The translations under genes and the position numbers were made by a program. From positions 1-64,000 of the forward strand of contig CANSSP010000010.1 of NCBI GenBank assembly GCA_947649645.1: 64,000 bases of DNA. Direction: 5' to 3'. This DNA comes from an uncultured Roseburia sp. (GTDB lineage Bacteria > Bacillota > Clostridia > Lachnospirales > Lachnospiraceae). The notes beneath the pieces were generated by a model. That model did not search any database. It saw only the letters and a program-made list of their open reading frames with translations, and was not told where the DNA came from. Position 1 is the first letter of the stretch, and each line of letters starts with the position of its first letter. Positions 45,680-64,000 of the stretch are shown here, piece after piece.

Positions 45680-45741
45680 AATCCTCCCTTGTACGCTGCC
45701 CTGCAATACTTTTCAGAATCCTGTTTACTCACACAAACGGG

Positions 45742-45862
45742 CAGCCGAACGTTACGACTGCCGCCGTCAGAGGGCGGCCCGGCCCAGGCGTTCGCTCTCC
45801 GCCTTCACATACCGGCGGCACTTTGCCATAAAATAATACTGCCTTCCCGGCTCTTCTGCCGG
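45742..45862. repeat. Copy B of the miaB 5'-end direct repeat (121 bp, with 5-bp GGCCC-type insertion)
   Basis: Same sequence as 44923..45038 apart from gggcggcccGGCCCaggcg. Confidence 0.97.
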
Positions 45863-46254: not shown

Positions 46255-46995
46255 TCAGCTCCCCCGGACCAGATTGTCTGCATGTATGATTCCCCACGCT
46301 TTCCTGCCGAGCTGCTCCCCTCTCGGATAGGCACGCTCATATAGCCTGAGTTTCATTTCAGCCGGAGTCAGATACGGATACCGCTCAAAGGCAAGTGCAA
46401 GAACGCCTGTCACAACAGGAGCTGCCATGGAAGTGCCGCTTTTGATCTGATATCCGCTCCCGCTTGCGGAGCAGCTTGTAATTCCGGTTCCCGGCGCCAG
46501 AATTTCCGGCTTTATAATGCAGCACTCCGTCGGTCCTTTTCCACTGTAACCCCGTCCGAGCCCTCTTCCTCCCCCTTCCGCCATCTCGTCGTCGCTGCTG
46601 CCAACCGTCAGGATCTTGCGCGAAATACCGGGAATCGTGACAGAGTTTTCCCGCGGCCCGTTGTTGCCGGCCGCAGCCACTACCAGAATTCCCCGGTCCC
46701 ACGCTTCATCTACGGCTGCAAGCAGCTCCTGCTGTTCTTTTTCTCCGGCACCCGGAAGCATTCCCACCGATATATTAAGCAGTCTGATATGGTATCTGTC
46801 CCTGTTACGGATAATCCATTCAATCCCCTGCAGCACTTTTGCCGTGCTGCCGTTTCCTTTTTCGTCCAGAACTTTTAACAGTATCACGCCTGCGCGGGGA
46901 GCAACGCCGCTGTAGACGCAGACTCCACGCTGATCACGCGACATCTTTCCGTTTCCTGCAATAATGCCGGATACATGGGTTCCATGCCCGAAACA
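46255..46995 (-). pseudogene. C-terminal part of an S8 (subtilisin-like) peptidase interrupted by the downstream element
   Basis: HGTHVSGI His motif, AAGNNGPRE, SGTSMAAPVVTGVLAL Ser motif present; Asp-containing N-terminus absent. Confidence 0.85.
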
Positions 46996-47000
46996 CGATA

Positions 47001-48617
47001 TCAGAACTCCCAATAAATCGTGATATTCTGCCGTCCCGTGCTTTTGTCTTTCTCACCGATCTCAATCATATCTATAAAATCGTTGACGATCTCATGGGTC
47101 AGTGAATCATATGCCGTATATTCCTGTACCAGTCTGCGGACGTCACTGTGCCGTCCGGCTGCTTTTGTCACAGATAAGATGGCATTTTTTCTTTCGTTTA
47201 ACGACTTTCTCTCTTCTTCAAAATCGCGTATCAGCCGGAAGAAAAGATCATCGTCAATTCGCCGCGCCGCCCGGTCTTCGTACAGGCATCTGATCGATTC
47301 CACGCTGCTTTTGATGGCACACTCCGTTTTTCGCAGTTCCTTTTTCTGATCTGACATCCACTGTCTGTCATCCGTACCCTGCACCAGCTCCACCAGCTTC
47401 TCAGAATACTGCCTTGTTTCCAGCACCTGTTTTACCGTTTCCTGTATCCTTTTTCGCACTGTCTCTTCCACGACAGAATAGCGTATGTTGTGGGACGAGC
47501 ACTCTTTTCCCCTCGACTTGTTTGACAGCTGACACCTAAGATACCAGTCGTCTTTCTTTCCTCTGACACCTCCCGATTTAATCATCGAATGTCCGCAGTC
47601 CGCACACCGGAGTTTTCCGGCAAACAGATGCACTTTTTTCCCGCCGTTGCAGTTTTCGCAGCCGATTCTCCGCCGGGAGCGCATCTTTGCCACTTTAAAA
47701 AAAGTATCGTTGTCGATCACCGGCTCGTGATGATTTTCCGTGACAAACCACTGTTCTCTCGGAACGGCCGTCACCTTTTTGTCTTTATAGCTGACCCTTC
47801 TGCACGTTCCCTGCGCCAGACGGCCGATATAAGTCTCATTTGAAAGAATCCGCTTTACTGTCGTTTCGCTCCAGAGATGATACCTGGCGCCAAGCATATC
47901 CGCTTTTACATTCTGATAAGCAAGTCCCTGCCGCTTTTTATATAACGTAGGATTTAAGATTTTTTCATCTTCCAGGATATGACAGATGGCCTTTACGCTA
48001 TAACCATCCAGAAAAAGAGAATAAATTTTCCGGACCACCCCGGCGGCATACTCGTCGATGACAAATTTATACTTATCGTCCGGGTCCTTTAAATAACCAT
48101 ACGGTGCGAACGGACCAATATACTGTCCCGCTCTCATTTTCTGTTGAAAAACAGCTCTGATATTTTCTGATAAGTCCTCACAATACCACTCGTTTACGAG
48201 TCCGCTGATCTGCCTCGCCTTTTTGTTTTCTCTGTTTTGCGTGTCCACGCCGTCGACAACACCGATAAACCGGATTCCAAGCAAGGGAAAATCGTGGTGC
48301 AGATATTTCTCAACATGTTCCATGTTCCTCGTAAATCTGGACTGCGTTTTAGCAAGTACGACGTTGAACTTTCCAAGCTTTCCATCGCGGATCAGACGTT
48401 TGAAATCCGGCCGGTCATCGTACAGCCCCGAGTAATCATCGTCCGAATAGACACCGGCGATCTGCATTTCATGTCTGAGTGCAAAATCCGTAAGCAGAAG
48501 CCTCTGGTTTATAACACTTTCGCTGTCGTCATTTTTGTCTGCCTTATCGCCATCCTCTTTGCTCAGCCTTAAATACAGCGCCGCTCTGTCCATCTTTTCC
48601 TCCGCTTTCGTCCGCAC
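47001..48617 (-). CDS. Large serine recombinase (resolvase + recombinase + zinc-ribbon)
   Basis: AALYLRLSKEDGD...; FAPYGYLKDPDDKYKFVIDEYAAGVVRKIYSLFLDGYSVKAICHIL; LRCADCGHSM. Confidence 0.95.
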   Translation of the reverse strand: MRTKAEEKMDRAALYLRLSKEDGDKADKNDDSESVINQRLLLTDFALRHEMQIAGVYSDDDYSGLYDDRPDFKRLIRDGKLGKFNVVLAKTQSRFTRNMEHVEKYLHHDFPLLGIRFIGVVDGVDTQNRENKKARQISGLVNEWYCEDLSENIRAVFQQKMRAGQYIGPFAPYGYLKDPDDKYKFVIDEYAAGVVRKIYSLFLDGYSVKAICHILEDEKILNPTLYKKRQGLAYQNVKADMLGARYHLWSETTVKRILSNETYIGRLAQGTCRRVSYKDKKVTAVPREQWFVTENHHEPVIDNDTFFKVAKMRSRRRIGCENCNGGKKVHLFAGKLRCADCGHSMIKSGGVRGKKDDWYLRCQLSNKSRGKECSSHNIRYSVVEETVRKRIQETVKQVLETRQYSEKLVELVQGTDDRQWMSDQKKELRKTECAIKSSVESIRCLYEDRAARRIDDDLFFRLIRDFEEERKSLNERKNAILSVTKAAGRHSDVRRLVQEYTAYDSLTHEIVNDFIDMIEIGEKDKSTGRQNITIYWEF

Positions 48618-48801: not shown

Positions 48802-50907
48802 TCAGGCCGTCCCCGCCCTTCCCCTATAGCGCAGAAAATCCTGCTTCATAAGACGAAAATTCTGCTCCTGATCAATCAGATATACCGGATCCTTTTCGGC
48901 ATATTCTCTGAGCCAGTCCTCCAGATCTTCATCCACTTTGTATGAATAAATCATCATGGCCAGCATGGACAGACGGTTTCCTTCCTCCAGCAGTCTCGAG
49001 CCGTCCCTGACAGTATTGTGCGTCAGATTTTCCAGCGACTCTGCATAAAAATCCAGATCGCTGTGCAGTTCCCTTCTGTCCATACCCAGATTTCTCGCAA
49101 GAAAAGCTTCCTCATCCGCCCTCTCATCTTCTCCTTCTCTCCCATCCAGACCGAAAAACGCATGCATCAGACTCACCAGACCGTTGATCTTTCCTGCGAC
49201 GACCGTTTTATCTCTTGTATTCTTACTCTTATAGACATCTACAAACGCTTTTCCGTTTACCGTCAATCGTTCGAGAGATTTGTCAACATACAACATAAAC
49301 GCTTTAAACTGTCCGTCCGGAAGGTTTAAACTCTTAAAACGGTCAAACACGGCAAACCAGACAGGAGAATTGGTCACGGTAAACATATTTCTGACTTCTT
49401 TATCCACAAACCCGCACAGCCGGTCGAGACTGTCGCGAAATGATTCAAACATGCCATCCGTGGCATGTTTGCTGACATATGCATACGAATCCTTCACTTC
49501 TTTTTTCCATTCATTCAGAAAATAAATCGCCATAATACTCTCGGCGACAACCTTGTCCACGTCGCCCTTGACCTTATTTCTGCCGGTATATTTTCCATAA
49601 TCATCCTTAAAAAAAGCGTGCTTTTCTGACAGGCATTTTATCTTGTCCGCCACATGGATATCCATTCCCGTAAATCCATACTGATTCTTATTCATTCCCT
49701 CCTGATTGTTGTAATTGCGGATATGATACGCGATCTGTTCATCCGTGCAATTGAAATACGTTGTCACATTGACATTGAATTTTTGAAACCGTTCTTTTAA
49801 AAACGCAGGAAATTCACTGAATTTTTTCCCGATCACATTAAATACCTTTTCTTCAGACAGTGCGTCCCCCGCTTCGTCCAGAAGTATATTTCCATTTCCG
49901 TCATACTGGTATTCCCGGTATGGAATTTCGTAAAATTCGGCGCCCTCCCGCTTTACCACAACCCCGTCCGCGCGAAACAATTCTGAATACGACAGTCTCT
50001 GCAGTCCGTCGATCAGATGGGACTTCTTCCTGCCGTTTATGGTCTGTTCACAGATGACAATCTCCGGAACCGGCTGTCCATTTAAAACTCTGGTAAGAAA
50101 TTTATTTTTCTGCCTCTCTGTCCACTGAAACGGCTTTCTCTGCAGAATATGTTTTTTATTGATCTTTCCGTCCCTCATGTCATCCAGCAGACTGCCCAGA
50201 GGATACTTATCCATTCTGTAATTGTCCGTCACGTCAAGCGGTATGATATCGCGCATCCCTTTCCCCTCCCTATATCGGTTCGACTGTTTTGTAAATAGTA
50301 CCAGGTTTTCATTGAGCCTGGCGTCTTTCATGTGATTGCGGTATTCCTTATCCGTCAGGCCGAGCGCCTCTCTGATCACGGAAACCGGAATCCCCTCCAT
50401 CTTCATCTCGATCATCCTTCTCCCGATCGCGGAGAGACTGCCAAGATACGTCTCAACCCTCTCATCCTGACAGCCGTCCATATGCCGGAACAAAATCTCA
50501 TCCATGTCAGAATCAGACCGCAGTACATCGCCCATTGTCAGACCGTCCGCATCCTCTGCGTCAATCGAAAGATCTGCAATATACTCATTTTTACCGGGAA
50601 GCCGCCCGTCTGCGGATCCCTCTTTCACAATCACAGTCCGCCGTTTCTTTCTGTTGTGGTCTGTCATCTCTTTTCGCACGGAATTGCGGATGACTCCGGA
50701 AATATATTCCATAAATGTCCGCCCTCTTGTCGGATCGTATCTGTCTTTCGCCACGCAGATCTCCAGTCCGGCTCTCGAATAAAAATCGTCGTAATCCTTC
50801 TGCCAGATTCCCCCGAATTTATCCATCTCTCTGTGGCACATCTTTCGCAGCTTCTTCCCATTATCCGAATAAAGTTCCTGTATTGTCTCTTCCATTGTAT
50901 TTTCCAT
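48802..50907 (-). CDS. Fusion of sigma70-like regions 2/4 with a DUF262 domain
   Basis: DDFYSRAGLEICVAKDRYDPTRGRTFMEYISGVIRNSVRKEM (sigma region 2-like); LSAIGRRMIEMKMEGIPVSVIREALGLTDKEYRNHM (region 4-like); HLIDGLQRLSYSELF (DUF262 DGxQR). ORF is open to 50982, but the promoter overlaps that ATG, so start set at MENTMEET. Confidence 0.75.
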   Translation of the reverse strand: MENTMEETIQELYSDNGKKLRKMCHREMDKFGGIWQKDYDDFYSRAGLEICVAKDRYDPTRGRTFMEYISGVIRNSVRKEMTDHNRKKRRTVIVKEGSADGRLPGKNEYIADLSIDAEDADGLTMGDVLRSDSDMDEILFRHMDGCQDERVETYLGSLSAIGRRMIEMKMEGIPVSVIREALGLTDKEYRNHMKDARLNENLVLFTKQSNRYREGKGMRDIIPLDVTDNYRMDKYPLGSLLDDMRDGKINKKHILQRKPFQWTERQKNKFLTRVLNGQPVPEIVICEQTINGRKKSHLIDGLQRLSYSELFRADGVVVKREGAEFYEIPYREYQYDGNGNILLDEAGDALSEEKVFNVIGKKFSEFPAFLKERFQKFNVNVTTYFNCTDEQIAYHIRNYNNQEGMNKNQYGFTGMDIHVADKIKCLSEKHAFFKDDYGKYTGRNKVKGDVDKVVAESIMAIYFLNEWKKEVKDSYAYVSKHATDGMFESFRDSLDRLCGFVDKEVRNMFTVTNSPVWFAVFDRFKSLNLPDGQFKAFMLYVDKSLERLTVNGKAFVDVYKSKNTRDKTVVAGKINGLVSLMHAFFGLDGREGEDERADEEAFLARNLGMDRRELHSDLDFYAESLENLTHNTVRDGSRLLEEGNRLSMLAMMIYSYKVDEDLEDWLREYAEKDPVYLIDQEQNFRLMKQDFLRYRGRAGTA

Positions 50908-50981
50908 TGTCTCTGTTTCTCTCTTCTGTCTGACTTGTACTGATACAGCCGGTCTCTTTATTTCCGCTATCACTGAATCCA

Positions 50982-51010
50982 ATTATAGAACATTTGTTTG
51001 CATCTGTCAA
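50982..51010 (-). promoter_or_regulatory. Consensus sigma-A promoter for the sigma-DUF262 gene
   Basis: Minus strand TTGACA-N17-TATAAT. Confidence 0.85.
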
Positions 51011-51040
51011 CATTCTTTTCGAATATATGTTTGCATCCGT
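50988..51040. promoter_or_regulatory. Two LexA-like operator repeats
   Basis: GAACATTTGTTTGCATCTGT (50988..51007) and GAATATATGTTTGCATCCGT (51021..51040), 17/20 identical, 33 bp apart; core GAAC-N4-GTTT. Confidence 0.65.
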
Positions 51041-51140
51041 GTAACTTAAGATTTCTTTTCGTCAGAGTACAGGGGCGGACCGGAAAACGAAAAAGAGAAA
51101 GGAAAAAGAAAAAAGAAAAAAAAGAAAGGATAACAGAACA

Positions 51141-53801
51141 ATGCATGACAGACAATATCATCTGTATTCCCTTGACACGGGACATTTTTACAGCAGCCGT
51201 GAAAAATATTTACACAACATGTACTGCAGATACCGCAGGGAGCTGCCCGGTCTGCAGGAGAAAATCGCGCCGCTCTCCGATATGGACGCCGGTTACGGAC
51301 AATGGACGGATCAAATCCGACACAAAAGAGAAAAGGCAAAGCAGGCCAGAAATAAACTCCTCACCCTTCTCTCCAACAAAACGGCGCAGAACGAAAAAAC
51401 AGACGGTGCAGACCATATCCGCACAATCCGGGAAGACAGCCTGAAAGACACCGATATCATTTCCATGTCTGACTCCGCTTTAAGCCGGATGATCGGCATA
51501 AAGCCGGACCATCTGACAGATGCCCTGATCATCGTCCGGGTGTACTATTTTGCTGTTTTTAAGGATCTTTCTTTCTACGGCTTTCTCTATAAAGGTGAAA
51601 AATATCGCTATTTTACCTCTTCAGCCGGGCAGATCCGCACTAAAAAAGCGTTATTTATCAAAGAAACCGTCTGGAATAAAATCAAAGAAAAAGTAATGTG
51701 TGGCCTGACCATCGATAAAATCAATGCAAAAGGCGGGAACAATGTGAACAGACATCTGGCTTATATGGCCCTGACTAATTCCACGACAGACGAGTGGAGT
51801 GACTTTGACATTGACCGCTCCATCGTCATCGATGATTTTGAAACGAATGTATATGGAACATTTGACTTTGTGGACGAGACCGACTATTCCATCACCCGTA
51901 AAAGCGGTTCTGTCCCCATTCCCCACACAGACGGCGCGGGGATGATCCTGCCGTGCATATCGAAAAAAAATTTTATGTTCCGCGCGCCCTGGATCAAAGG
52001 CCTTCTGGGCGTGTTTGACTTCCGGAAATTTGTAGAGGTCAGCGGCTGTTCTCCCGTCATCACCGACATCTACGGCGCTTCTCATGATATCATTGAAGAA
52101 GACATCCGGATCATTTTCACAAAGAGCCAGTTTAAAATGTACCGATATTACGAATCCTGGGATGAATATAAACATTTTTTTAAAATCTATGGCTGTCACG
52201 CCGGCGTCTGCAACGTCGAAGAAGACCGGATCCGGAACGCAAAAATCAATTACCAGATGCTGCAGACGCTCACCGACATTACCGACGAGGAAATCGACCG
52301 GCTGACCCACAGATCCGCGGAACGGATCCGCAATATCTGCAATTCAAAAGAAACCATGATGGAAACCCTTGGAATCACACCTTACAACACAAATATGACA
52401 CCCTTCCAGCAGGCGGTAAAACAATACCCTGCCCTTCTGGGCGACACGTACACCAAAGATATCTTACGGGAGATAAAAAAGAGCCTTTTGAAAAAATACC
52501 GCAGCGGAAAGCTCGAAGTCAACGGTAAATATACGTTCCTGCTCCCCGATTATTATGCGGCATGTGAACACTGGTTTCAGAAAATCCCCGAGCCGGACGG
52601 ACTTTTACGTGATAAAGAGGTATATTGCCGGCTGTTTCCGCAGCACGAAAAACTTGACTGTCTGAGAAGTCCTCATTTGTATAAAGAACACGCCGTACGC
52701 CGCAACACTGCAAATACGTCTTACGGCACGCGTGCCGGCACAATTGGAGAATGGTTCCTCACGGACGGGCTCTATGCGGGCTCACACGATCTGATCACAA
52801 AAATACTGATGTACGACGTCGACGGCGACAAAGCCCTTGTCGTCGCAGACAAGGATTTTATCGCCATCGCCGAACGCAATATGAACGGGATAGTCCCACT
52901 CTACTATAATATGAGAAAAGCAGAGCCCACAGAGTTAAACAAAAAAAATATTTACGCAGGCCTCACCGCCGCATTTACAGGCGCAAACATCGGCGCTTAC
53001 AGCAACCATATTGCAAAAATATGGAACAGCGACGTTTTTCTGACCGGGTCAGAAGCAGAAAAGCAGGACGCGACGGACTGTGTAAAACGGCTGTGCTGTC
53101 AGAATAACTTTGTGATCGATTACGCCAAAACCCTCTACAAGCCGGAATTTCCGCCCGCAGTAAAAAAACAGGTTTCAAAATATACCACCACAAAACTTCC
53201 CGCCTTCTTTGTATATGCAAAAGACAAAACGCCTTCGCAGGTGACGGCGCCCAACGGGAGTCTTGTCAACCGGATCTGTGACAAAATAAAAGATCATCCG
53301 ATTCGGACGCACAGCATCTGTGCCGGCCCCCTCGAATACCGGAAAATGATGTCGGACCCACAGATCGTCTGCGACAGGACAATTTCAGATCTGTATGACA
53401 GACTGGCCAGACAGTATCGCTATATGTCAAACACAAAAGAGGACAGCAAAGATAATCTGCGTTATCTCGCTGACAAAATCAGGGAAACCTTCCGCGAGCC
53501 GGGGTATTCCGACGAGACAGTCGCCGACATGCTGACGCAATATCTCTATGGCGGAAAAAAACGCTATAAACAACTGCTCTGGTTCTGCTACGGAAACAAT
53601 ATTGTAGAAAATCTTAAAAAAAATACAGATCAGCAAAAAACAAAATACATCCGGTGCCCCGAATGTGGAGAATGGTCTGAAGTCCCCACATCCTCCCGGC
53701 GCAGACGCTGCGAGACATGCGGCACGCTCCACAGAAAAAAAGCAATCTGCGAAAATGCAAAACGATATTATCACACAAAAAAACATTTTTATACAGACTG
53801 A
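51141..53801 (+). CDS. YonO-like/cellular-RdRP-like single-subunit RNA polymerase candidate (two double-psi beta-barrel superfamily)
   Basis: TDGAGMILPCISKKNFMFRAPWIKGLLGVFDF (residue 263 on) and MYDVDGDKALVVAD (DVDGD at 559-563; nt 52815..52829); C-terminal zinc ribbon CPECGEW...CETCG. Confidence 0.72.
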   Translation: MHDRQYHLYSLDTGHFYSSREKYLHNMYCRYRRELPGLQEKIAPLSDMDAGYGQWTDQIRHKREKAKQARNKLLTLLSNKTAQNEKTDGADHIRTIREDSLKDTDIISMSDSALSRMIGIKPDHLTDALIIVRVYYFAVFKDLSFYGFLYKGEKYRYFTSSAGQIRTKKALFIKETVWNKIKEKVMCGLTIDKINAKGGNNVNRHLAYMALTNSTTDEWSDFDIDRSIVIDDFETNVYGTFDFVDETDYSITRKSGSVPIPHTDGAGMILPCISKKNFMFRAPWIKGLLGVFDFRKFVEVSGCSPVITDIYGASHDIIEEDIRIIFTKSQFKMYRYYESWDEYKHFFKIYGCHAGVCNVEEDRIRNAKINYQMLQTLTDITDEEIDRLTHRSAERIRNICNSKETMMETLGITPYNTNMTPFQQAVKQYPALLGDTYTKDILREIKKSLLKKYRSGKLEVNGKYTFLLPDYYAACEHWFQKIPEPDGLLRDKEVYCRLFPQHEKLDCLRSPHLYKEHAVRRNTANTSYGTRAGTIGEWFLTDGLYAGSHDLITKILMYDVDGDKALVVADKDFIAIAERNMNGIVPLYYNMRKAEPTELNKKNIYAGLTAAFTGANIGAYSNHIAKIWNSDVFLTGSEAEKQDATDCVKRLCCQNNFVIDYAKTLYKPEFPPAVKKQVSKYTTTKLPAFFVYAKDKTPSQVTAPNGSLVNRICDKIKDHPIRTHSICAGPLEYRKMMSDPQIVCDRTISDLYDRLARQYRYMSNTKEDSKDNLRYLADKIRETFREPGYSDETVADMLTQYLYGGKKRYKQLLWFCYGNNIVENLKKNTDQQKTKYIRCPECGEWSEVPTSSRRRRCETCGTLHRKKAICENAKRYYHTKKHFYTD

Positions 53802-53875
53802 GCCGTCCGCAAAACACTCGTTGTTTACGGAAGAATCCGAAAATCAAAAAATAAAATCACCCGTAAATAACGGCG

Positions 53876-53887
53876 GAACATATGTTT
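53876..53887. promoter_or_regulatory. Third LexA-like box
   Basis: GAACATATGTTT. Confidence 0.5.
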
Positions 53888-53937
53888 GTATAAGGGAAAC
53901 AGGGAAATAAAATACGGATCGGAGGTGAATAACGAAT

Positions 53938-54279
53938 TTGACGCTCACACAGGATACATTGCTGAAAAAAATTGCAGACAGGGAAGGAATAGACGTAACG
54001 ATGGTCAGAAACATATTTAAGTCCGCAGAGGATATTATTTTTGACTGTCTCTCCTCCACCACACCGTCTGAACCGATCAGGATCAAATGCCTGAAAGGCG
54101 TTCAGATCGAGCGGACTTACGTCGAAGAGAAGAAATATTCCAAAGGCATGTTTCAGAACATCGATTGTCCGGAGCACGTAAAAACAAATGCAAAACTGTC
54201 GGATTACTACAACGGACAGATCAACAGAACATTATTCGACAGAGAAACGGAAAACGGTGGCTGTTATGTACAACGATGA
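53938..54279 (+). CDS. HU/IHF-like DNA-binding protein
   Basis: LTQDTLLKKIADREGIDVTMVRNIFKSAEDIIFDCL...RIKCLKGVQIERT; TTG start with RBS ggaggtg. Confidence 0.55.
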   Translation: MTLTQDTLLKKIADREGIDVTMVRNIFKSAEDIIFDCLSSTTPSEPIRIKCLKGVQIERTYVEEKKYSKGMFQNIDCPEHVKTNAKLSDYYNGQINRTLFDRETENGGCYVQR

Positions 54280-55003
54280 ATTAAAAATATACCGCGGTGA
54301 AGATTTTGCCGTCACAGACGCCATCGCAATCCACCAGCCCACTTTAAATGAAATTGCCGATTACGGCGAGCGGGAATACTATTCCATGATCTGTCAGCTC
54401 ACCGCAACGCCGCAGACCATGAAGGTGCAGTTATGGGATATCGGAATCGACTATACAAAGATCACGCCCTATGAACTGTTCTGCCAGGTAATCTGCCGGC
54501 TATACACACAGGAACAGACTTCCATCCTGTTCGGCGGGCTGGATTTTACCAGATTCCGGATCACACAGTCCGATGCAGACGAGCCCGTACTGCTGCAATT
54601 CGTCCACGGCAGACCCGTTGTCATCGATACGTCTGCTTATCATAAAATAGCAGATTACATAAGAAGCGTGCACGGGCTCACGAAGGATGAACGTCTTCCG
54701 GCAAACGAGACGACAAAGCGGATTCTGATCGAAGACGACAGAGAAGAGCTGGAGCGCTGTAAAAACAGGGAGTATCGCTCCCAGCTAAAAAATCTGATCT
54801 CTTCCATGGTCAACTCGCAGGGGTTTAAGTACAATCATTCCCAGGTCTGGGATATGAAAATTAACGCTTTTATGGATTCCGTAAAAAGGATATCCAGGAT
54901 CAAAAATGCAGAGCTGCTTTTACAGTCCGGCTATTCGGGCTATGGAATCAGTCTGAAAGACATTGACAAAAAACAACTAGACTGGATTGGCGATCTCGAA
55001 TAG
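54266..55003 (+). CDS. Phage hypothetical protein
   Basis: MYNDELKIYRGEDFAV...; overlaps the HU-like gene by 14 bp. Confidence 0.6.
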   Translation: MYNDELKIYRGEDFAVTDAIAIHQPTLNEIADYGEREYYSMICQLTATPQTMKVQLWDIGIDYTKITPYELFCQVICRLYTQEQTSILFGGLDFTRFRITQSDADEPVLLQFVHGRPVVIDTSAYHKIADYIRSVHGLTKDERLPANETTKRILIEDDREELERCKNREYRSQLKNLISSMVNSQGFKYNHSQVWDMKINAFMDSVKRISRIKNAELLLQSGYSGYGISLKDIDKKQLDWIGDLE

Positions 55004-55036
55004 AGTCCCATCCGAAAAACCAAAGGAGGAAATAAC

Positions 55037-55834
55037 ATGAGCTTTAATCTCAACGAACTTATTCTTGAAAAAATCAGATCTGTCGAAGAGTACGATCCTG
55101 CGACAAACGAACTGACAGGCCTCTATACACAGATAGAGGAGCCCAGCCTTAAGACAAGTGCGGACGCCACGGAAGTAACCGACGCCATGGGCGCTTCGAT
55201 CTATACCATCTATAAAGCCCAGAAAGGTACGTTTGATTTCACAAACTCTCTCTTTTCGCTCGATCTGGCCGCTTCCCAGTATGGCTCCGAAAAGATTGTC
55301 GCAAGCGATACAGACAGGCTTCTCGTTCCCGTATCTGAGGTAATCACCATCGGGGCAGACCACACGGTGGTTTTAAAATATGTTCCCGCAGGCACCGAAG
55401 GCGCAGAGATCCGATCTGTCAGAGTAATAAACCCGGATAATACCTTCGGCGGGATTTACGAGGTGTCCGCTGCGGCCGGCGAAGGAAAGTTTACCTTAAA
55501 CGCCGCGACAAAGACGATCACACTGCCGGACGATGCGACAGGCAGGGTATTCGTAAATTACGAGAAAGAAAGCACACAGGCCGTCCAGGTGACAAAGAAA
55601 ACAGACAGTGTCCCGAAAGTCAAAACACTGGTAATCCACGCCATCTTCCACTCGGTCTGCGATACCAACATCGTATATGCAGGCGTGATACGGTGTCCGA
55701 GAGCGCAGATTGACCCGTCCGGCACAGAGCTTTCTCTTAAATCCGACGGAAAGCACTCCGCTTCTTACATCCTGCAGAAAGATTACTGTTCTGACAGCGG
55801 AAAGCTTTTCGATATCATCATCAGCAAAGACTGA
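55037..55834 (+). CDS. Probable phage structural (tail-tube-like) protein
   Basis: RBS aaaggagg; beta-rich 265 aa sequence in a tail gene context. Confidence 0.5.
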   Translation: MSFNLNELILEKIRSVEEYDPATNELTGLYTQIEEPSLKTSADATEVTDAMGASIYTIYKAQKGTFDFTNSLFSLDLAASQYGSEKIVASDTDRLLVPVSEVITIGADHTVVLKYVPAGTEGAEIRSVRVINPDNTFGGIYEVSAAAGEGKFTLNAATKTITLPDDATGRVFVNYEKESTQAVQVTKKTDSVPKVKTLVIHAIFHSVCDTNIVYAGVIRCPRAQIDPSGTELSLKSDGKHSASYILQKDYCSDSGKLFDIIISKD

Positions 55835-55836
55835 TC

Positions 55837-56133
55837 ATGGAAGAACAGAACATAAACGCCTACTGCTCGATCTGCGGAAAAGGCTACCATGTCTGCAAGG
55901 CCTGTATGGAACAAAGGGCATTCCGGCCCTGGCGGACCATTGCGGACAGCGCCGCGCACTATCAGATTTATATGGCAATCCACGGGTATACCGTGTCGAA
56001 AGACAAAAAAACTGCCAGAAACGAACTGGAAAAATGCGATCTCAACGGCTGCGAAAACTTCAGGCCCGAGATAAAGGCGGCCATACGCCGCATTTTGTCG
56101 GAAACAGAAGAAAAAGACGGACAGGCAGAATAA
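55837..56133 (+). CDS. Small zinc-ribbon phage protein
   Basis: YCSICGKGYHVCKACMEQ. Confidence 0.6.
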   Translation: MEEQNINAYCSICGKGYHVCKACMEQRAFRPWRTIADSAAHYQIYMAIHGYTVSKDKKTARNELEKCDLNGCENFRPEIKAAIRRILSETEEKDGQAE

Positions 56134-56228
56134 ATTCTGCACGTCTGCCATCTCCTGTATTTACAAAATTTTCAACCTGTGTTACTCTGGATAAATCAGA
56201 ATAATTTTGATTTCCGGAGGGTACAATC

Positions 56229-57224
56229 ATGAGAACATCGAGCAAAGAACGGACACTGCAATGGATTCAGAACCAGTACAAAAAAGGAAATATATCGTTT
56301 TCACACAAACTCCAGCGTCCGATCGGACAGTGGACCCCAAAAATGAAATCTCTTCTGATTCACAGTCTTCTGTCCGGTTTCCCTGTAAATCCCATTTACG
56401 TCGTCGAAGAAAACGGTACCCTTTATACCCTCGACGGCTCACAGAGAACTTCGACGTGCCTTAATTACATAAACAACGAATTTTCGCTGAGCAAAGACAC
56501 TCCCGATATCATAATCGAGAGCAGGGAGAACGGCGAATCCGTCTCCAGAACCTATGAAATCGCCGGCAAAAAATTCGGCAGACTCGACGAGGAAGTGCAG
56601 AACAGCCTCCTCGCATGCAGTCTGGAATTCTGCATGCTGTCCGACTACACAGAACACGAAGTCAGAGAAATGTTCCGTCGTCAGAATGCCGGAAAACCGC
56701 TCAACAGCAGGTTGCTGCGCATTGTAAATGAATCCGATGCATTCAGCGATACCGTGTATTCGCTCGCCACACATCCGTTTATGGATAAGATTGTGACAAA
56801 AATGCAGCGCAAAAACGGAACCGACAGGGATCTGATCATTCAGACACTGATGCTGATTGAGACAAGTCCGGAACAGGAATTTACCTCTTTTCGGACCAGG
56901 GACATCGACGCCTTTGTATCGGAACATTCGGATGCCATCGGCGCCGAAAAAATCGAACTTTTGCGCGACGCGATGACGGCTTTTGACGAGGCTTTTGATC
57001 AGATTAAAATTCCCGTTACATCCATCCCTATGATTCTTTACAGCGGTTATCACATGAAAAAAGATCAAAAAGCCTTTTCCGGCCTTATCGGACCGATTCA
57101 GACTTTTCTGGAGCATTACAACGACAACGAAGAATATAAACAGTATGTCCGGTCCGGCACAGGAAGTGCGGAAAATGTACGCGGGCGCTTTGACTACTGG
57201 AAAAACATTATAAAAACAGCATAG
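56229..57224 (+). CDS. DUF262-domain protein
   Basis: SLLSGFPVNPIYVVEENGTLYTLDGSQRTSTCLNYI. Confidence 0.82.
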   Translation: MRTSSKERTLQWIQNQYKKGNISFSHKLQRPIGQWTPKMKSLLIHSLLSGFPVNPIYVVEENGTLYTLDGSQRTSTCLNYINNEFSLSKDTPDIIIESRENGESVSRTYEIAGKKFGRLDEEVQNSLLACSLEFCMLSDYTEHEVREMFRRQNAGKPLNSRLLRIVNESDAFSDTVYSLATHPFMDKIVTKMQRKNGTDRDLIIQTLMLIETSPEQEFTSFRTRDIDAFVSEHSDAIGAEKIELLRDAMTAFDEAFDQIKIPVTSIPMILYSGYHMKKDQKAFSGLIGPIQTFLEHYNDNEEYKQYVRSGTGSAENVRGRFDYWKNIIKTA

Positions 57225-57243
57225 CACGAATAACAGCAGAAAG

Positions 57244-57290
57244 AGGGCTGCCACATCCGGCCGGAGAGTCGGATGCGGCAGCCCTTTTTT
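57244..57290 (+). terminator. Rho-independent terminator after the DUF262 gene
   Basis: AGGGCTGCC-A-CATCCG / CGGATG-C-GGCAGCCCT followed by TTTTT. Confidence 0.9.
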
Positions 57291-57334: not shown

Positions 57335-57619
57335 ATGAAAATAATACAGACACAACAGATCAGACATTACAGACAGGCCATCGGGCAGCTTGTGGCCGAA
57401 AATGAAACACTCCGAAACAGACTGAGACAATACGAAGAAAACGGCTTTTTAAAAGCAGCCGCCAGGACAGTAAAGGCAAAAAACAGATATGAAGCACTCA
57501 TAAAAGAAGCGGCCCGATGCAAAGAAGAATACGAACAGCTCATCAGGGAACAGAAAATAAGAAACAGGGAAGGTGATAAAAATTGGCGAAACGATTATTT
57601 GACTCACAAAATCAGTTAG
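57335..57619 (+). CDS. Small coiled-coil phage protein
   Basis: QAIGQLVAENETLRNRLRQYEENG...; overlaps the next gene. Confidence 0.55.
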   Translation: MKIIQTQQIRHYRQAIGQLVAENETLRNRLRQYEENGFLKAAARTVKAKNRYEALIKEAARCKEEYEQLIREQKIRNREGDKNWRNDYLTHKIS

Positions 57620-60600
57620 ACATCCCCACTCTCATCCTTGAGACAAAAAGCGGAGAACGATTTGGCTCCATTGACGGCGTAACCGGACTGACCTATAAAA
57701 AGACGATGGGAGCAGACAGCGTCAGTTTTGTCGTACACAAATACGTCGACGGGATTTTACATCCCCTGTGGGAAGACATCACAGATCTGAAAACTCTTTT
57801 TATCCCGGAATACGGGGAAAAATTTGAAATAAAAATAACATATGAGGACGAAGAATACGAGACGAAATCCGTCAGCGCAGTCTCCCTGTGTGAGGCAGAA
57901 TTGTCACAGATCCTGCTGCGCAATTTTGAAGTCAACACAGAAACCGACATCGCGCGCGACGATTACAGACTGACCGTGTTTTACGATCCCGATCATCCAG
58001 ACGCCTCCCTTCTGCACCGCGTCTTATCGGCAAAGGCGTCCTTTTATCAGATCGGCGAAGTCGATGAAACACTGCGCAGCCTTTCTTTTGAATTTTCCGC
58101 CGACAACACGGACGTCTATCAGTTCCTGACAGATGAAGTCGCAAAGGAGATGCAGTGTATCTTCCTGTTTGACTCAATGACAAGAACCATTCACGTTTAT
58201 GACCTTAACAGCACATGCAACGAATGCTTTCAGACCACCCCCTCAGGACTGTCTGAAAGACATTACCGCGGCGACTTTCATGATATCTGCCCCAATTGCG
58301 GGAGCACAAATATCAGGAATGGTTTCGGTGAGGATACCACTATATTAATCGACAGGGAAAGCATCGCCAGCTCCATCGTTGTCGAAAGCGATGCCGACGC
58401 GCTGAAAAATTGCTTTTATGTCGAAGGCGGAGACGATGTGATGACGGCCGCATTCTGTCTGATCAACCCGAACGGTACACCCTGCCTCTACTATTTTCCG
58501 CCGCGGGAGCTTGACAAAAAAGCTTCGGACCGGATTTACAAATTTCCGGATGAACTGATTGACGCGTTAAACGCATATGATACGGATTACAGGTACTACC
58601 TGACACAACACACCTTCGATCCCTCCCGCTTATCACACATTTATCATCCCGGAACCAATGACTTTACTCCCACCACTTACGATCCGCAAAGCACCGATTT
58701 AAACTATATCACGGCTTACAACGCTGTTGTAGAAAAAATCTCCGGCCTCTCTGACCAGTCTCCCTATCATGACTGCATTCATTATAAAAGTACGCTTACC
58801 TTTAAAGGACAGAGTGCGCTCGTGGCCGCTTATTTTAACTCGGTTGATTTTGAAGCATTCGTACAGACAAAAATGATGCCGGACTGTGAGATGGAAGTCT
58901 GTACCAAGGAGGAAGCCATCCGAAAACTGACCTCCGCCTCACTCGGCACGATCGCCATCGCCGGTTTTGGCAGCGCAACGACCAGAACCGTCGTCGACAA
59001 TGCCGTTCTGATGACCGCAAAGACCATCGTAAACACTGCACTCTTTGATGTCGGAATTGAATCCAGCGTTTATACGGCCGGAAATTCTTCCTGGACCGGC
59101 CGGTTTGTGATCACAGACCGACAGGACGATAATGTCGGCACAAGGACGATTGTCTCACCACAAAACGTGACTTTATCCGTCAACGGAGACATCCCGGCCT
59201 ACTGCAGGGCCCGCATAAAATCGCTCCTCTCAAAAAATGACCTGCCGGCCACAGAGCCTTTGTACGATCTGACCATAACCGACGCGGATTTTAAAAGCCG
59301 GATTGCCCTTTACGGTGCAGATCAGCTTAAAATTCTCTACAACGTGATGTTAAGCTGCCTTGACGTATTGCAGGAACAGCTCGACAAAAGCGGGATCCGG
59401 AAAGAAAACAGTGTAACCGAAGAATTAAAACGATACTACTCCGTCTATCACAGACGCATGGGCGAAATTTCCGCGAAAATATCCGAGAGAGAGGCAGATC
59501 TGAATAGCATATGGCGGTACAAAGCACTGCTCTGCTCCTATCTCGAAACTGTCCGGTCCATCCTCAGCTTTCCGTCCTACCTCGCACAGTACGCTAAAAC
59601 GCACGCACTTTCCGTTGACCTGTGGGAACTTTTTAATCTGCACCGGCGCGAAGAGACTTATCGGAACAGCCATATTATTTCCGATTCCCTAAAGAATAAC
59701 AGCGACATCATACGCCATGCCGGATCTCTTATGGAACTGGCAAAGAGAGAGCTGATTACGGCCGGAACCCTGCAGTATTCCATATCTGCTTCTCTCTCGA
59801 GCCTCCTCGCGCTGACAGAATTTGCTCCGCTCACGGAACACTTTGAAATCGGAAACTGGATCCGGGTCCGCACCGATATCAGGGAAGATACACCGGAGGA
59901 TTCCATTTACCATTTAAGACTCCTCTCCTATCAGATCACATTCGATGACGTCCAGGAAATCGACGTGGAATTTTCTACCGTTACAAAAACCTGGAGCGGT
60001 ATGCAGGATTCCGGCTCCGTTCTGGAATCGATCCAGGGTATCGCCTCTTCCTACGACGGGGTAAAACGACAGACCGACAAAAACAGCGCGGCAGCAGATA
60101 TCGTTGATGACTGGGTCGCAAAGGGCCTTGACATGACAAATCAGAAAATCGTCAACAGCACAGACAGCCAGGCTTTTGTAATTGACGAGCACGGGCTTCT
60201 GGCAAGAAGCTATGATGATCTCACCGATGTGTACGGCCCCTGCCAGCTGAAAATTCTGCACAACGGCCTCTACACAACCCACAACAGCTGGGAAACCGTG
60301 GACGCGGGAATCGGCTCGTTTATTTATTACGATCCGCTAAATCAGTTCCGGGAAACCGTCGGATATGGTCTCATCGCAAAAACAGTCGTCGGCTCACTTA
60401 TCCTGGGGGAAAACCTTGGAATTTACAATAAAACCGGTTCCATGCGTTTCGACGAAGAGGGACTTGTCATCTCAAACGGGAAAAATACGATTTTTATCCG
60501 GCCGGACAAAACGGCATTCGAAATCTGCCGGGGAACCACAAAGCAGTTTTACCTGGACATGGACGGAAATGCGACGTTCCGCGGAACCATCTATGCGGAC

Positions 60601-61773
60601 GCAGGCGAATTTACAGGAACCATAAACGCCGGCTCCACCATCACGGGCTCGCACATTTCCGGAAGCACGATCCGCACAAAAAACAATCTGTTCCATGTCG
60701 CTGAAGACGGCAAAACGACCGTAAAAGATCTGATTGTGACAGATTCCATATATGGACAGTACTCCCACTCCAGTCAGCCGGCAGGAATAGCAGAAATCCT
60801 CCGGTTTGTGAGCACGCCGGCTTATTCCTACGATAAAATCTTTTACAGCGAATCCCTGGATGAATTTGTATCTGTCACAGAAAACTATAAAGGGCCCGCA
60901 AAGGAATCGTCCAGTCTGCAGGTCTGCCCCGATGTATGCTCGTTTGATTCTGTCGCTCTCTTTAAAAATGTCGCCGACTTCAGGCAAAATGTCTTCTTCC
61001 GCTCGACAGCCGCATTTTCCGACGGGGCATCCGTCGGGAAGGCACTGCATGTCAGCGGAAATATTCATACGGACGGCAGCTCCTACACCGGCAGCGATCT
61101 GCATGTCGACGGCAGCCTGATCACACAGGGAGAAGCCCGGCTCCATGGAGATGTTTATTTTCACTCTCTCATCCGTCTGCAGCGGAAAGGCGAACGGCAC
61201 ATCAGCGCCCAGTGGGCCGACGGGAGATACCACACGCTGCTCAGCCTCTATGACGACGGCCTGAAACTGGCGGTGGGATGGACCGGATTGAGCGAAGACG
61301 GGGAAACCTATCCGACTGATCTCGTTTTAAGAGGGCAGACGGTACATGCGCCGTATGCGAGTGGTATGACAGTTACATCCGACGAACGCCTGAAACGCTC
61401 CTTTGAGAGTCTGGACGCCTTTGACGACGTATACATGGACCTGAGACCAGTCTCATTTGAATATGTCAACGGCTCGTCCGGGCGCAGGCACTTCGGCTTC
61501 GGCGCGGGCGCAGTCAGAGAAAATCTTGAAATGCATGGCTTTACAACACAGGATTTTGCCGGGTTTGTACAGATAAGCGAGAAACCCGAAAGCCAGGATT
61601 ACTGTGGAATCGAAGACCCCATGGGACTTATCTACACAGAATTTATCGCCTGGAACACGCACATGATACAGCAGACGCGCAGGGAACTTGACGAACTCCG
61701 TCTGCAGGTAAAAGAACTGTCTGAAAAATACAACAGGCTTCTGCCCGAAAAAACACAGGAGGTGAAACCATAA
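57583..61773 (+). CDS. Large phage tail/tail-spike protein with C-terminal S74 intramolecular chaperone domain
   Basis: N-terminal Tal-like region; CNEC...CPNC zinc-ribbon; C-terminal TSDERLKRSFESLD...PVSFEYV...FGFGAG. TTG start with RBS. Confidence 0.85.
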   Translation: MAKRLFDSQNQLDIPTLILETKSGERFGSIDGVTGLTYKKTMGADSVSFVVHKYVDGILHPLWEDITDLKTLFIPEYGEKFEIKITYEDEEYETKSVSAVSLCEAELSQILLRNFEVNTETDIARDDYRLTVFYDPDHPDASLLHRVLSAKASFYQIGEVDETLRSLSFEFSADNTDVYQFLTDEVAKEMQCIFLFDSMTRTIHVYDLNSTCNECFQTTPSGLSERHYRGDFHDICPNCGSTNIRNGFGEDTTILIDRESIASSIVVESDADALKNCFYVEGGDDVMTAAFCLINPNGTPCLYYFPPRELDKKASDRIYKFPDELIDALNAYDTDYRYYLTQHTFDPSRLSHIYHPGTNDFTPTTYDPQSTDLNYITAYNAVVEKISGLSDQSPYHDCIHYKSTLTFKGQSALVAAYFNSVDFEAFVQTKMMPDCEMEVCTKEEAIRKLTSASLGTIAIAGFGSATTRTVVDNAVLMTAKTIVNTALFDVGIESSVYTAGNSSWTGRFVITDRQDDNVGTRTIVSPQNVTLSVNGDIPAYCRARIKSLLSKNDLPATEPLYDLTITDADFKSRIALYGADQLKILYNVMLSCLDVLQEQLDKSGIRKENSVTEELKRYYSVYHRRMGEISAKISEREADLNSIWRYKALLCSYLETVRSILSFPSYLAQYAKTHALSVDLWELFNLHRREETYRNSHIISDSLKNNSDIIRHAGSLMELAKRELITAGTLQYSISASLSSLLALTEFAPLTEHFEIGNWIRVRTDIREDTPEDSIYHLRLLSYQITFDDVQEIDVEFSTVTKTWSGMQDSGSVLESIQGIASSYDGVKRQTDKNSAAADIVDDWVAKGLDMTNQKIVNSTDSQAFVIDEHGLLARSYDDLTDVYGPCQLKILHNGLYTTHNSWETVDAGIGSFIYYDPLNQFRETVGYGLIAKTVVGSLILGENLGIYNKTGSMRFDEEGLVISNGKNTIFIRPDKTAFEICRGTTKQFYLDMDGNATFRGTIYADAGEFTGTINAGSTITGSHISGSTIRTKNNLFHVAEDGKTTVKDLIVTDSIYGQYSHSSQPAGIAEILRFVSTPAYSYDKIFYSESLDEFVSVTENYKGPAKESSSLQVCPDVCSFDSVALFKNVADFRQNVFFRSTAAFSDGASVGKALHVSGNIHTDGSSYTGSDLHVDGSLITQGEARLHGDVYFHSLIRLQRKGERHISAQWADGRYHTLLSLYDDGLKLAVGWTGLSEDGETYPTDLVLRGQTVHAPYASGMTVTSDERLKRSFESLDAFDDVYMDLRPVSFEYVNGSSGRRHFGFGAGAVRENLEMHGFTTQDFAGFVQISEKPESQDYCGIEDPMGLIYTEFIAWNTHMIQQTRRELDELRLQVKELSEKYNRLLPEKTQEVKP

Positions 61774-61774
61774 C

Positions 61775-62590
61775 ATGTATGCATTTGATTTTGAATATGA
61801 CGGATATGCGCTTTCCGATTTCGGAATGATGATCTGCGCATTTCAGTCATCCGATCTGGAAACGGTATCCTCCGGAGCCGATCTGTCTTTTCAGGTCATA
61901 AAACCGACCGGTTCTGATAAATTCCGGTTTTACGGCTCAAAATACGAAGAATCTTACTCCGCCACAATCCAGATCTGCAAATCGCCATGCGGCGATACCG
62001 GACTGTATCTTGAACCGTCCGAAATTTCCGCCCTGCAGCGCTGGCTATGCAGAAAAGACGGCTATCACCCGTTTCACGTCATACAGGACGACTTAAAAGA
62101 TCTCTTCTGGAACGCGACCTTTACCTGCCGGCAGCTCCTCTTTAAGGGACAGGCCGCAGGGCTTGAACTGACACTGTACACAGACGCGCCTTACGCGTAC
62201 CTGAAATCAGAACCGCTCTTTTACTCCCTTACTCCCGGCGAGAGCTTCTCCGTTTTCGACCAGTCGGACGAAACGGGAAGCATTTACCCGACCGTCGAGA
62301 TTTTATGTAAAGGGCAGGGCGACATCCGGCTTACAAACAGCCTGGACCGGAAAATCCTGACATTGACTTCTCTGTCATACAATGAACGGATTACGCTGGA
62401 CGGAGAGCATAAAATCATAACGTCCTCCCTTCAGAGAAAAGACCTGCCGGACCATTTTAATTTCTATTTTCCCAGAATCCGCAACACATTCCAGGAACGC
62501 GAAAATATTTTTACACTGACAAGGAATGACAGAGCCATTCCCTGCGATATTACCTTTCACTATCATCCGATCGTAAAAATCGGACTGTAG
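61775..62590 (+). CDS. Phage distal-tail-like protein
   Basis: MYAFDFEYDGYALSDFGMMICAF...; 271 aa, Dit-like N-terminus. Confidence 0.65.
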   Translation: MYAFDFEYDGYALSDFGMMICAFQSSDLETVSSGADLSFQVIKPTGSDKFRFYGSKYEESYSATIQICKSPCGDTGLYLEPSEISALQRWLCRKDGYHPFHVIQDDLKDLFWNATFTCRQLLFKGQAAGLELTLYTDAPYAYLKSEPLFYSLTPGESFSVFDQSDETGSIYPTVEILCKGQGDIRLTNSLDRKILTLTSLSYNERITLDGEHKIITSSLQRKDLPDHFNFYFPRIRNTFQERENIFTLTRNDRAIPCDITFHYHPIVKIGL

Positions 62591-62627: not shown

Positions 62628-64000
62628 ATGTCAGTCATACAATATAAACTAAACTTAGATTTGCGCAGAAACGTCCACCAGGTACTTGTAATGAAAGAAG
62701 GCGACGTCAACGCAAGGGAAATCTGCATCACCGTCACCGACAATGGGAAAGTTTTCAATCTGGACGGTTACTCCGCCGACTGTAAATGGAAAAAACCGGA
62801 CGGAACCTATGTATTTAACACCTGCCCCGCCAGACAGGGACAGCTCTATATCTTATGTACCAGACAGATGCTTGCCGTTTCCGGCATCGCCAGAGTGGAA
62901 ATCGTCCTCTACCGTGATATCAACACCGAAAACCAGGACAAAAACGTAATCTCCACCATGAAATTTCACGTCAGTGTCAACCCGTCCGTCGTCTGCGATA
63001 AAGACATCGAATCGTCAGACGAATTCGGCGCACTCACGGAAATTATGCTCAAAAACAAACAGCTCGCAAAATCCCTGGAAGAACTAATGGAGGACAGCAC
63101 GCTTGTACACACCAGTGACCTGGGCGTCCCGGGCGGCGTTGCAACGTTAAACGAAAGTGGAACCATCCCCTCTGCGCAGCTCCCTTCCTACGTCGACGAC
63201 GTAAAAGACGGTCATGCCGTTCACGTCATGGTCGACGATACGACCGGTTCCAGAACAGCCTCGGAATTTATTTTTACAGGAGAAAGCGAGCCCTGTGTCC
63301 CCGAAACAGACAAAATCTATATCGATATTGACGAGGGCATCACCTACCGCTGGTCGGGAACCATCTTTGTCAGCATCGGCTCTCCGCTCTCACTGGGCAC
63401 CACCTCTTCCATGGCCTTCCCCGGCGACAGAGGACTTTCCCTCGAACAGGCTGTCCAGGACCTATCCAGCCCCGCGACCTGGCAGAAAAACGGCCTCTTA
63501 TCGTCGGAGGATAAAAAGCGGATCGATAACTATGCCAATCTGAGAGAAATAAGGATCACCCTCCCTGCCGCATCCTGGTACGGGACGGCCGCCCCGTACA
63601 CACAGGCCATAGAAACCGAAGATCTCTCCGTTTACAATAACTGCAGCATTGAAATGGACACCGACGCGACTTACGCCCAGACAACCGCAGCCGCAGATGC
63701 AAAAATTAACAGGATTACATATGAAAATGGTCAGCTTAGCTTCTCTGCGGACGGTACAAAGCCATCCGTGGATCTCCCGCTCCTTCTCTGCGTCGGGACA
63801 AGCATAAATATCGTCAGCGTACCGGCCTGTTTTGAAGAAATGATTCACCCCGGAATGATCGCAAACAATGACGCAACGGAAGAGGAAGGTTTTGTGGCAG
63901 ATGCAAGAATCGTGAAAGTACACGGGGATGAGATTGATGCGGTTCATGATTCCATTGTTTCGCTGAACAATAATCTGACAAACATCGACACATCTGTCAA
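62628..64000 (+). CDS. BppU-like baseplate upper/receptor-binding protein (runs off window)
   Basis: MSVIQYKLNLDLRRNVHQVLVMKEGDVNAREICITVTDNGKVFNLDGYSADCKWKKPDG; frame open to the window end, RBS aaggaggt; absent from the supplied ORF track. Confidence 0.75.
   Translation, partial: MSVIQYKLNLDLRRNVHQVLVMKEGDVNAREICITVTDNGKVFNLDGYSADCKWKKPDGTYVFNTCPARQGQLYILCTRQMLAVSGIARVEIVLYRDINTENQDKNVISTMKFHVSVNPSVVCDKDIESSDEFGALTEIMLKNKQLAKSLEELMEDSTLVHTSDLGVPGGVATLNESGTIPSAQLPSYVDDVKDGHAVHVMVDDTTGSRTASEFIFTGESEPCVPETDKIYIDIDEGITYRWSGTIFVSIGSPLSLGTTSSMAFPGDRGLSLEQAVQDLSSPATWQKNGLLSSEDKKRIDNYANLREIRITLPAASWYGTAAPYTQAIETEDLSVYNNCSIEMDTDATYAQTTAAADAKINRITYENGQLSFSADGTKPSVDLPLLLCVGTSINIVSVPACFEEMIHPGMIANNDATEEEGFVADARIVKVHGDEIDAVHDSIVSLNNNLTNIDTSV

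Follow-up and report, generated by a model that had tools for sequence, protein, structure and literature searches.

A predicted LexA-controlled sigma-DUF262/yonO relay in a headless SPbeta-like tail element of an uncultured Roseburia

YonO, the single-chain RNA polymerase encoded by the Bacillus phage SPbeta (SPBc2), is related to the cellular RNA polymerases, and transcription of the SPbeta late genes requires it; deletion of yonO silences 37 genes, the transcription concerned beginning upstream of yonK (PMC5467207). That work left open how YonO is activated, how it finds its promoters and whether it depends on a phage-encoded factor (PMC5467207). Here we describe a 64,000-nucleotide stretch of DNA from an uncultured Roseburia sp. 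(assembly GCA_947649645.1, contig CANSSP010000010.1, positions 1 to 64,000; hereafter the window), part of a 101,775-bp contig (C10) in a draft genome of 3.07 Mb. The subject is element A, 18.5 kb long (46,990-65,470), which interrupts an S8-protease gene and houses a sigma-DUF262 gene, yonO, an HU-like gene and tail genes. We consider it probable that element A descends from an SPbeta-like siphophage, is now integrated and headless in the manner of a tailocin, and is operated by a two-step transcription relay.

The locus resembles the yonO-yonN late switch of SPbeta in three respects: an HU-like gene comes after the YonO orthologue, tail genes have relatives in YomU and YomH, and induction by DNA damage is predicted. 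It differs on the divergent side, where SPbeta carries yonR and yonP, and neither a divergent sigma factor nor DUF262, at the place occupied here by the sigma-DUF262 gene. An initial annotation of the window had named this gene, a YonO-like polymerase, an HU-like gene and a second DUF262 gene, and had noted both the SPbeta-like order and the absence of the divergent partner from SPbeta. All four genes are present, with weak homology for the HU-like one, and both comparisons with SPbeta stand.

The divergent sigma-DUF262 and yonO genes

The 726-amino-acid (aa) open reading frame (ORF) on the minus strand at 48802-50982, divergent from yonO, is by its domain matches a SigH/extracytoplasmic function (ECF)-like sigma factor, comprising regions 2 and 4, fused to DUF262. 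Its listed TTG start falls within the -10 box of its own promoter, and the true start is likely the ATG at 50907, which gives 701 aa. The sigma part matches the NCBIfam sigma70-ECF model (E 4e-7) and a PHROG sigma family (E 3e-6), and the stand-alone sigma of a related locus (L014) matches sigma70-ECF at E 4e-9 and SigH models at E 1e-9. Since the sigma part in the window scores 29.9 bits, below the curated family cut-off of 42.9, it is best described as a divergent, sigma-like protein and not as a typical sigma-70 member. The DUF262 half scores 37.3 bits with Pfam GmrSD_N (cut-off 33.2), and D325, G326 and R329 of its DGxxR motif are invariant. AlphaFold models the fusion at a predicted local distance difference test (pLDDT) score of 86 with a 38-sequence alignment and 33 from the single sequence. 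Foldseek relates the DUF262 half to BrxU (E 7.5e-4), SspE and ParB/Noc; for the N-terminal half it returns many RNA polymerase sigma chains, each a weak match (E above 0.1) to a query that is a two-domain chain.

GmrSD carries DUF262 as its N-terminal domain, and with BrxU and SspE as the best structural matches, both DUF262 proteins of the element could be read as defence-type cargo of the GmrSD, BrxU or SspE kind, unrelated to transcription control. We regard this as very unlikely: a C-terminal nuclease domain is detected in neither protein, Pfam giving GmrSD_N alone, and the first DUF262 is near-constantly paired or fused with a sigma factor with which it co-varies (see below), an objection that does not extend to the second.

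Directly ahead of the sigma-DUF262 gene lies a sigma-A promoter on the minus strand (50981-51009; TTGACA-N17-TATAAT, a 12/12 match), with its -10 hexamer at 50981-50986 and its -35 hexamer at 51004-51009. The spacer between the two contains LexA box 1, AGAACATTTGTTTG (50987-51000), and an identical 14-mer precedes the lexA gene of the host. LexA box 2, CGAATATATGTTTG (51020-51033), lies 33 bp from box 1; the front of host lexA likewise has, near its 14-mer, a box (GGAATATATGTTTG) that resembles box 2. A sigma-A promoter with a LexA box in its spacer (TTGACA-N17-TATAxT) is found at 13 of the 14 loci with divergent sigma and yonO genes (the window, L011-L015, L029, L030, L060, L061, L062, L068 and L148, with L057 as the exception), and box 2 is kept at the 33-bp spacing in most of them. 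In the large phages whose sigma gene lies away from yonO, neither a LexA box nor such a promoter was found. The match to the box at host lexA and the recurrence of the design support the prediction that LexA represses the sigma(-DUF262) promoter and that damage would relieve the repression, and with it the SOS (DNA-damage response) gate proposed for this gene in the initial annotation.

Further boxes were seen elsewhere. Locus L148 (G373:C11) has two perfect LexA boxes 33 bp apart. A LexA-like box 3 with one mismatch to the consensus, GGAACATATGTTTG (53875-53888), stands upstream of the HU-like gene in the window. At L151 (G365:C1) a LexA box, CGAACATGTGTTTG, lies 28 bp before yonO itself, which suggests direct SOS control of yonO without a sigma factor at that locus.

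The yonO gene (51141-53801, plus strand) encodes an 886-aa protein, a single-chain DNA-dependent RNA polymerase whose activity is predicted by homology. It shares 42.4% identity with SPbeta YonO over 97% of the latter's length and 41% with Perkons YonO, and matches phrog_8308 at E 1e-246; compared with PDB sequences it gave no match. The catalytic Asp triad DxDxD (DVDGD; D559, D561, D563) is invariant in 17 divergent homologues, down to about 16% identity. Its sequence thus identifies the ORF as a true YonO orthologue, as had been proposed. An A-rich motif shared upstream of yonO (about GGAGAAATAT) scores 61.6, compared with 40-48 in a simple shuffled null, and is only a lead, not convincing alone. 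The HU-like DNA-binding protein (53938-54279, plus strand) occupies the position of SPbeta yonN. The protein in the window has no Pfam match, and the L014 homologue reaches 20.9 bits (E 4e-4) with Bac_DNA_binding, slightly under the cut-off of 22.4.

At the place of SPbeta yonP, a small conserved protein (FGGxxxPSDFNTD...RRIxxDxRFDEQC) precedes yonO in several loci (L014:9400-9936, L015:9779-9988, L011:13565-13891 and L030:8704-8955).

Recurrence and co-variation of the module

Searches led by YonO and by the sigma factor both recovered the pair. In the YonO-led search, all five close relatives on contigs long enough to judge carry sigma and DUF262 divergently, and in the sixth (G064) they are divergent on its other contig (L030). 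The sigma-led search, in which viral-contig relatives were found with a sigma alignment as the query, returned 22 IMG/VR loci, with DUF262 following sigma or fused to it in nearly all; a first scan of viral contigs with YonO alone had found no relative. Of 23 virus records with sigma, 18 also encode YonO; among the 9 records longer than 100 kb the figure is 8. Among host genomes of the order, YonO occurs in 31 of 395, while a strong sigma match occurs in 6 of 296, five of these six having YonO on the same contig. The initial annotation had set co-occurrence of the pair in other elements beforehand as a test of its proposal, and the pair does recur. The fusion it described holds in the window and in some lineages, to which it is confined; sigma and DUF262 are usually two separate, adjacent genes.

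For sigma and DUF262, pairwise distances are correlated (Mantel r 0.62, p 0.0003); for sigma and YonO they are not (r -0.05, p 0.72), and DUF262 likewise shows no co-variation with YonO (r about 0). As YonO distances are near saturation, the co-variation is an argument and not a proof. Our reading is that sigma and DUF262 form one working unit to which YonO may be joined exchangeably; because neither co-varies with YonO, the sigma most likely acts on the host RNA polymerase, with which it probably works.

A different arrangement can be conceived, in which promoter recognition by YonO itself, and not by host RNA polymerase, depends on sigma-DUF262, the protein serving this single-chain polymerase as a dedicated initiation factor. 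The divergent adjacency in 14 loci and the presence of YonO in nearly all large sigma-bearing records speak for it, and the question of a phage factor for YonO was left open (PMC5467207). We nevertheless judge it distinctly unlikely, given that sigma correlates in its distances with DUF262 and not with YonO, that similar sigmas adjoin YonOs of 15-73% identity, that the sigma fold matches factors binding multi-subunit RNA polymerases, and that the YonO phages SPbeta, Perkons and TR-TP1, as well as BUCT082, have no detectable DUF262 partner. A locked sigma-YonO unit was rejected for want of co-variation.

In large phages, for example G074 and G066, sigma-DUF262 and YonO are encoded tens of kilobases apart. 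The side-by-side placement of sigma-DUF262 and yonO under a LexA promoter looks like a step of domestication.

The second DUF262 gene (56229-57224, plus strand) encodes a 331-aa protein with no sigma part, matching GmrSD_N at 47.1 bits (cut-off 33.2) and phrog_2598 at E 1e-37. One close relative, in the genome G015, sits between two tape-measure pieces; another, in phage MT835469 (176 kb), is accompanied by YonO, HU and a sigma-DUF262 fusion. It is missing from three of five comparable tail cassettes (G024:C51, G033:C2 and G061:C49) and so is at most a candidate component of the switch; as a conserved component it was rejected. Neither group I introns nor other Rfam RNAs were found around this gene or around the split tape measure of G015. 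A strong hairpin resembling an intrinsic terminator, GGGCTGCC...GGCAGCCCTTTTTT (57240-57290), separates the second DUF262 gene from the tail-tip genes.

Tail genes, element boundaries and the missing head

The virion genes downstream of yonO in element A are tail genes alone. Those predicted in the initial annotation are thus present, but as a headless tail cluster and not as the late genes of a phage. Capsid, portal and terminase genes were found neither in element A nor in the contiguous cluster of G015, which starts at 26 kb on contig C19, reaches the end of that contig (53.6 kb) and has the order DUF262, sigma / YonO, HU-like, G4, YomU-like, G6, cysteine desulfurase, amidase, holin, tape measure (split), Tal, Dit and BppU. 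The HU gene is followed directly by a G4-type tail gene in the window, L012, L013, L015, L016 and L148, whereas in SPbeta and Perkons terminase, portal and capsid genes intervene between the HU gene and the tail genes. A profile of the SPbeta-type terminase found its target in phage G066 (E 2e-67) and gave no match in nine host genomes with the divergent cluster. An ordinary complete prophage was rejected for lack of head genes.

All genes of the tail region are on the plus strand. The G4 tail gene (54188-55003, likely start ~54266; phrog_4051) matches Perkons ORF199 with an hhalign probability of 95% and, weakly, SPbeta YomV with one of 33%. It is followed by G5, a YomU-like virion protein and probable tail tube (55037-55834; YomU profile E 1e-15, hhalign 97%). 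By tblastn, G4 and G5 had no match in phages, while profile comparison with SPbeta and Perkons gave matches. G6, a small conserved protein (55837-56133), has same-place homologues in L015 and L016 and an apparent counterpart in G015. Beyond the second DUF262 gene come a small coiled-coil protein (57335-57619), defined by ORF and position, which has no family match and a 93-aa counterpart after the tape measure in L077; a tail-tip (Tal-like) protein with an S74 chaperone domain (57583-61773; phrog_6211, phrog_7121, Pfam Peptidase_S74); a YomH-like distal tail protein (Dit; 61775-62590; phrog_33 E 3e-13, hhalign YomH 90%); and a BppU-like baseplate protein (62628-64000, continuing to 64307 on the contig), whose G015 counterpart matches Pfam BppU_N at E 6e-10.

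The tape measure missing from element A is encoded elsewhere in the same genome, on contig C1 (L188, G000:C1:143169-150566), as an intact protein of 2465 aa (phrog_14917, E 1e-40). The gene stands alone among host genes, and in front of it are a TTGACA-N17-TACTAT promoter sequence and two LexA boxes. Given its own LexA boxes on another contig, the tail set of this genome appears dispersed yet co-regulated by the SOS response. In G033 and G061, a cassette of tape measure, Tal, Dit and BppU is likewise separate from the YonO cassette.

The absence of head genes, lysis genes and tape measure from within element A would also be expected of a decaying prophage remnant whose regulatory genes are left-overs without present function. 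This explanation appears unlikely to us, as every large ORF is intact, other genomes repeat both the headless order and the LexA promoter, and the tape-measure gene on contig C1 is undamaged and has LexA boxes.

In tail clusters, a cysteine-desulfurase-like (Aminotran_5) gene lies beside the lysis genes (L014:14884-16032, L015:15065-16180, L057:1097-2218 and L029:14448-15635). Tape-measure genes can be interrupted, by HNH endonuclease genes in L181 (Thomasclavelia phage TR-TP1) and by a DUF262 gene in G015 (C19:37819-46955).

The boundaries of element A are set by the S8-protease gene, which other genomes of the genus carry intact and which here lies in three pieces (46261-46989, 65469-65573 and 69113-69220), indicating two insertions, elements A and B. 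The first piece is the C-terminal part of the protease and forms the left flank of element A. A 9-bp attachment core, TACATGGGT, is common to both ends; the left copy (46972-46980) lies inside the protease gene and is identical to 65469-65477 on the same contig, and an intact protease homologue, L034, splits at the left core. A large serine recombinase (47001-48617, minus strand; Pfam Resolvase, Recombinase and Zn_ribbon_recom, all above cut-offs) is the probable integrase of element A.

An integrase of its own, clean boundaries and tail genes without head genes would suit a phage satellite that provides a helper phage with its own tail tube and tail tip. We hold this to be highly improbable: no packaging or replication genes were seen and no helper was identified, and in relatives such as G015 and L015 the cluster also includes lysis genes and tape-measure sequence, a better fit to a tailocin.

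Element B (L009; 65573-69113, about 3.5 kb), in the same protease gene about 100 bp from element A, carries two further serine recombinases on the minus strand. At about 45729-45850, a fragment similar to the 5' part of the neighbouring miaB seems to be an upstream repeat of it.

Transcription relay and comparison with known systems

On the tailocin-like reading of element A, LexA would hold the strong sigma-A promoter of sigma(-DUF262) until DNA damage releases it, a step that the boxes and promoter support at the sequence level. The SigH/ECF-like sigma would then recruit host RNA polymerase to the promoter of yonO, and possibly to further ones, while its NTP (nucleoside triphosphate)-binding DUF262 partner may hold or license it; that sigma switches on yonO is our inference. 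By homology to SPbeta, YonO would finally transcribe the tail genes.

Several points weigh against this interpretation. The step from sigma to yonO has no identified promoter. Most YonO loci lack a sigma within ~1.5 kb, many of them keeping the same gene order, so dependence appears mainly one-way. Element A is without the G015 stretch from desulfurase to tape measure, that is, the lysis genes and the tape measure, and a lysis-side marker was not found in the genome of the window, so the window copy may be impaired. Most relatives end at contig ends, and the terminase profile also missed the large phage records G071 and G074, which makes the terminase negatives incomplete. The relay itself is read from genes, both the particle and its expression being predicted. 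Overall, the initial interpretation is partly supported: the SOS gate, YonO, the gene order and the co-occurrence are supported; the fusion is limited to some lineages, the second DUF262 is at most a candidate part of the switch, the element is a headless tail cluster and not a phage, and the dependence within the pair is mainly one-way.

The damage-controlled sigma/yonO pair recurs in more than 12 related clusters and looks like a real, so far undescribed way to run such elements. In the open-access literature searched (subscription papers and preprints lying outside this scope), no paper pairs "tailocin" with "YonO", and as far as titles and abstracts reveal, no such pair is apparent in that on DUF262, sigma factors and phages. 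More broadly, and only tentatively, we suggest that in Lachnospirales a whole class of SPbeta-type tail clusters, headless and domesticated, would run on a damage-triggered two-polymerase relay, in which release of LexA would yield a DUF262-gated sigma, the host polymerase would make YonO, and YonO would produce tails from several loci. If the proposal is true, the sigma-DUF262 pair, which annotation pipelines file as restriction-like or hypothetical, would be a new type of sigma/regulator module, and the tailocin-like elements would gain a class that brings an RNA polymerase of its own. A compact, recurrent module that couples YonO to a LexA-controlled sigma also makes YonO activation directly testable.

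Element A is set apart from SPbeta by the LexA-box promoter of its first gene and by its lack of head and packaging genes, SPbeta keeping terminase, portal and capsid. With tailocins (R- and F-pyocins and other phage-tail-like bacteriocins) the G015 cluster shares tube, tape measure, tail tip, lysis genes, LexA boxes and the absence of a head; tail genes without capsid, portal or terminase are found in both G015 and element A, and of these two only G015 has lysis genes and a tape measure within the cluster. Element A differs from tailocins in its own YonO and sigma-DUF262, its integrase and a tape measure at a second locus, and any particle or killing activity of it is hypothetical. The sigma part shares region 2, region 4, small size and a co-encoded partner with SigH/ECF-type sigmas that have fused or adjacent regulatory domains, but here the partner is DUF262, of ParB-like fold, and the scores lie under curated cut-offs. 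With GmrSD, BrxU and SspE the protein has in common the DUF262 fold and the DGxxR motif; it differs from them in that no nuclease domain is detected and in its pairing with a sigma factor.

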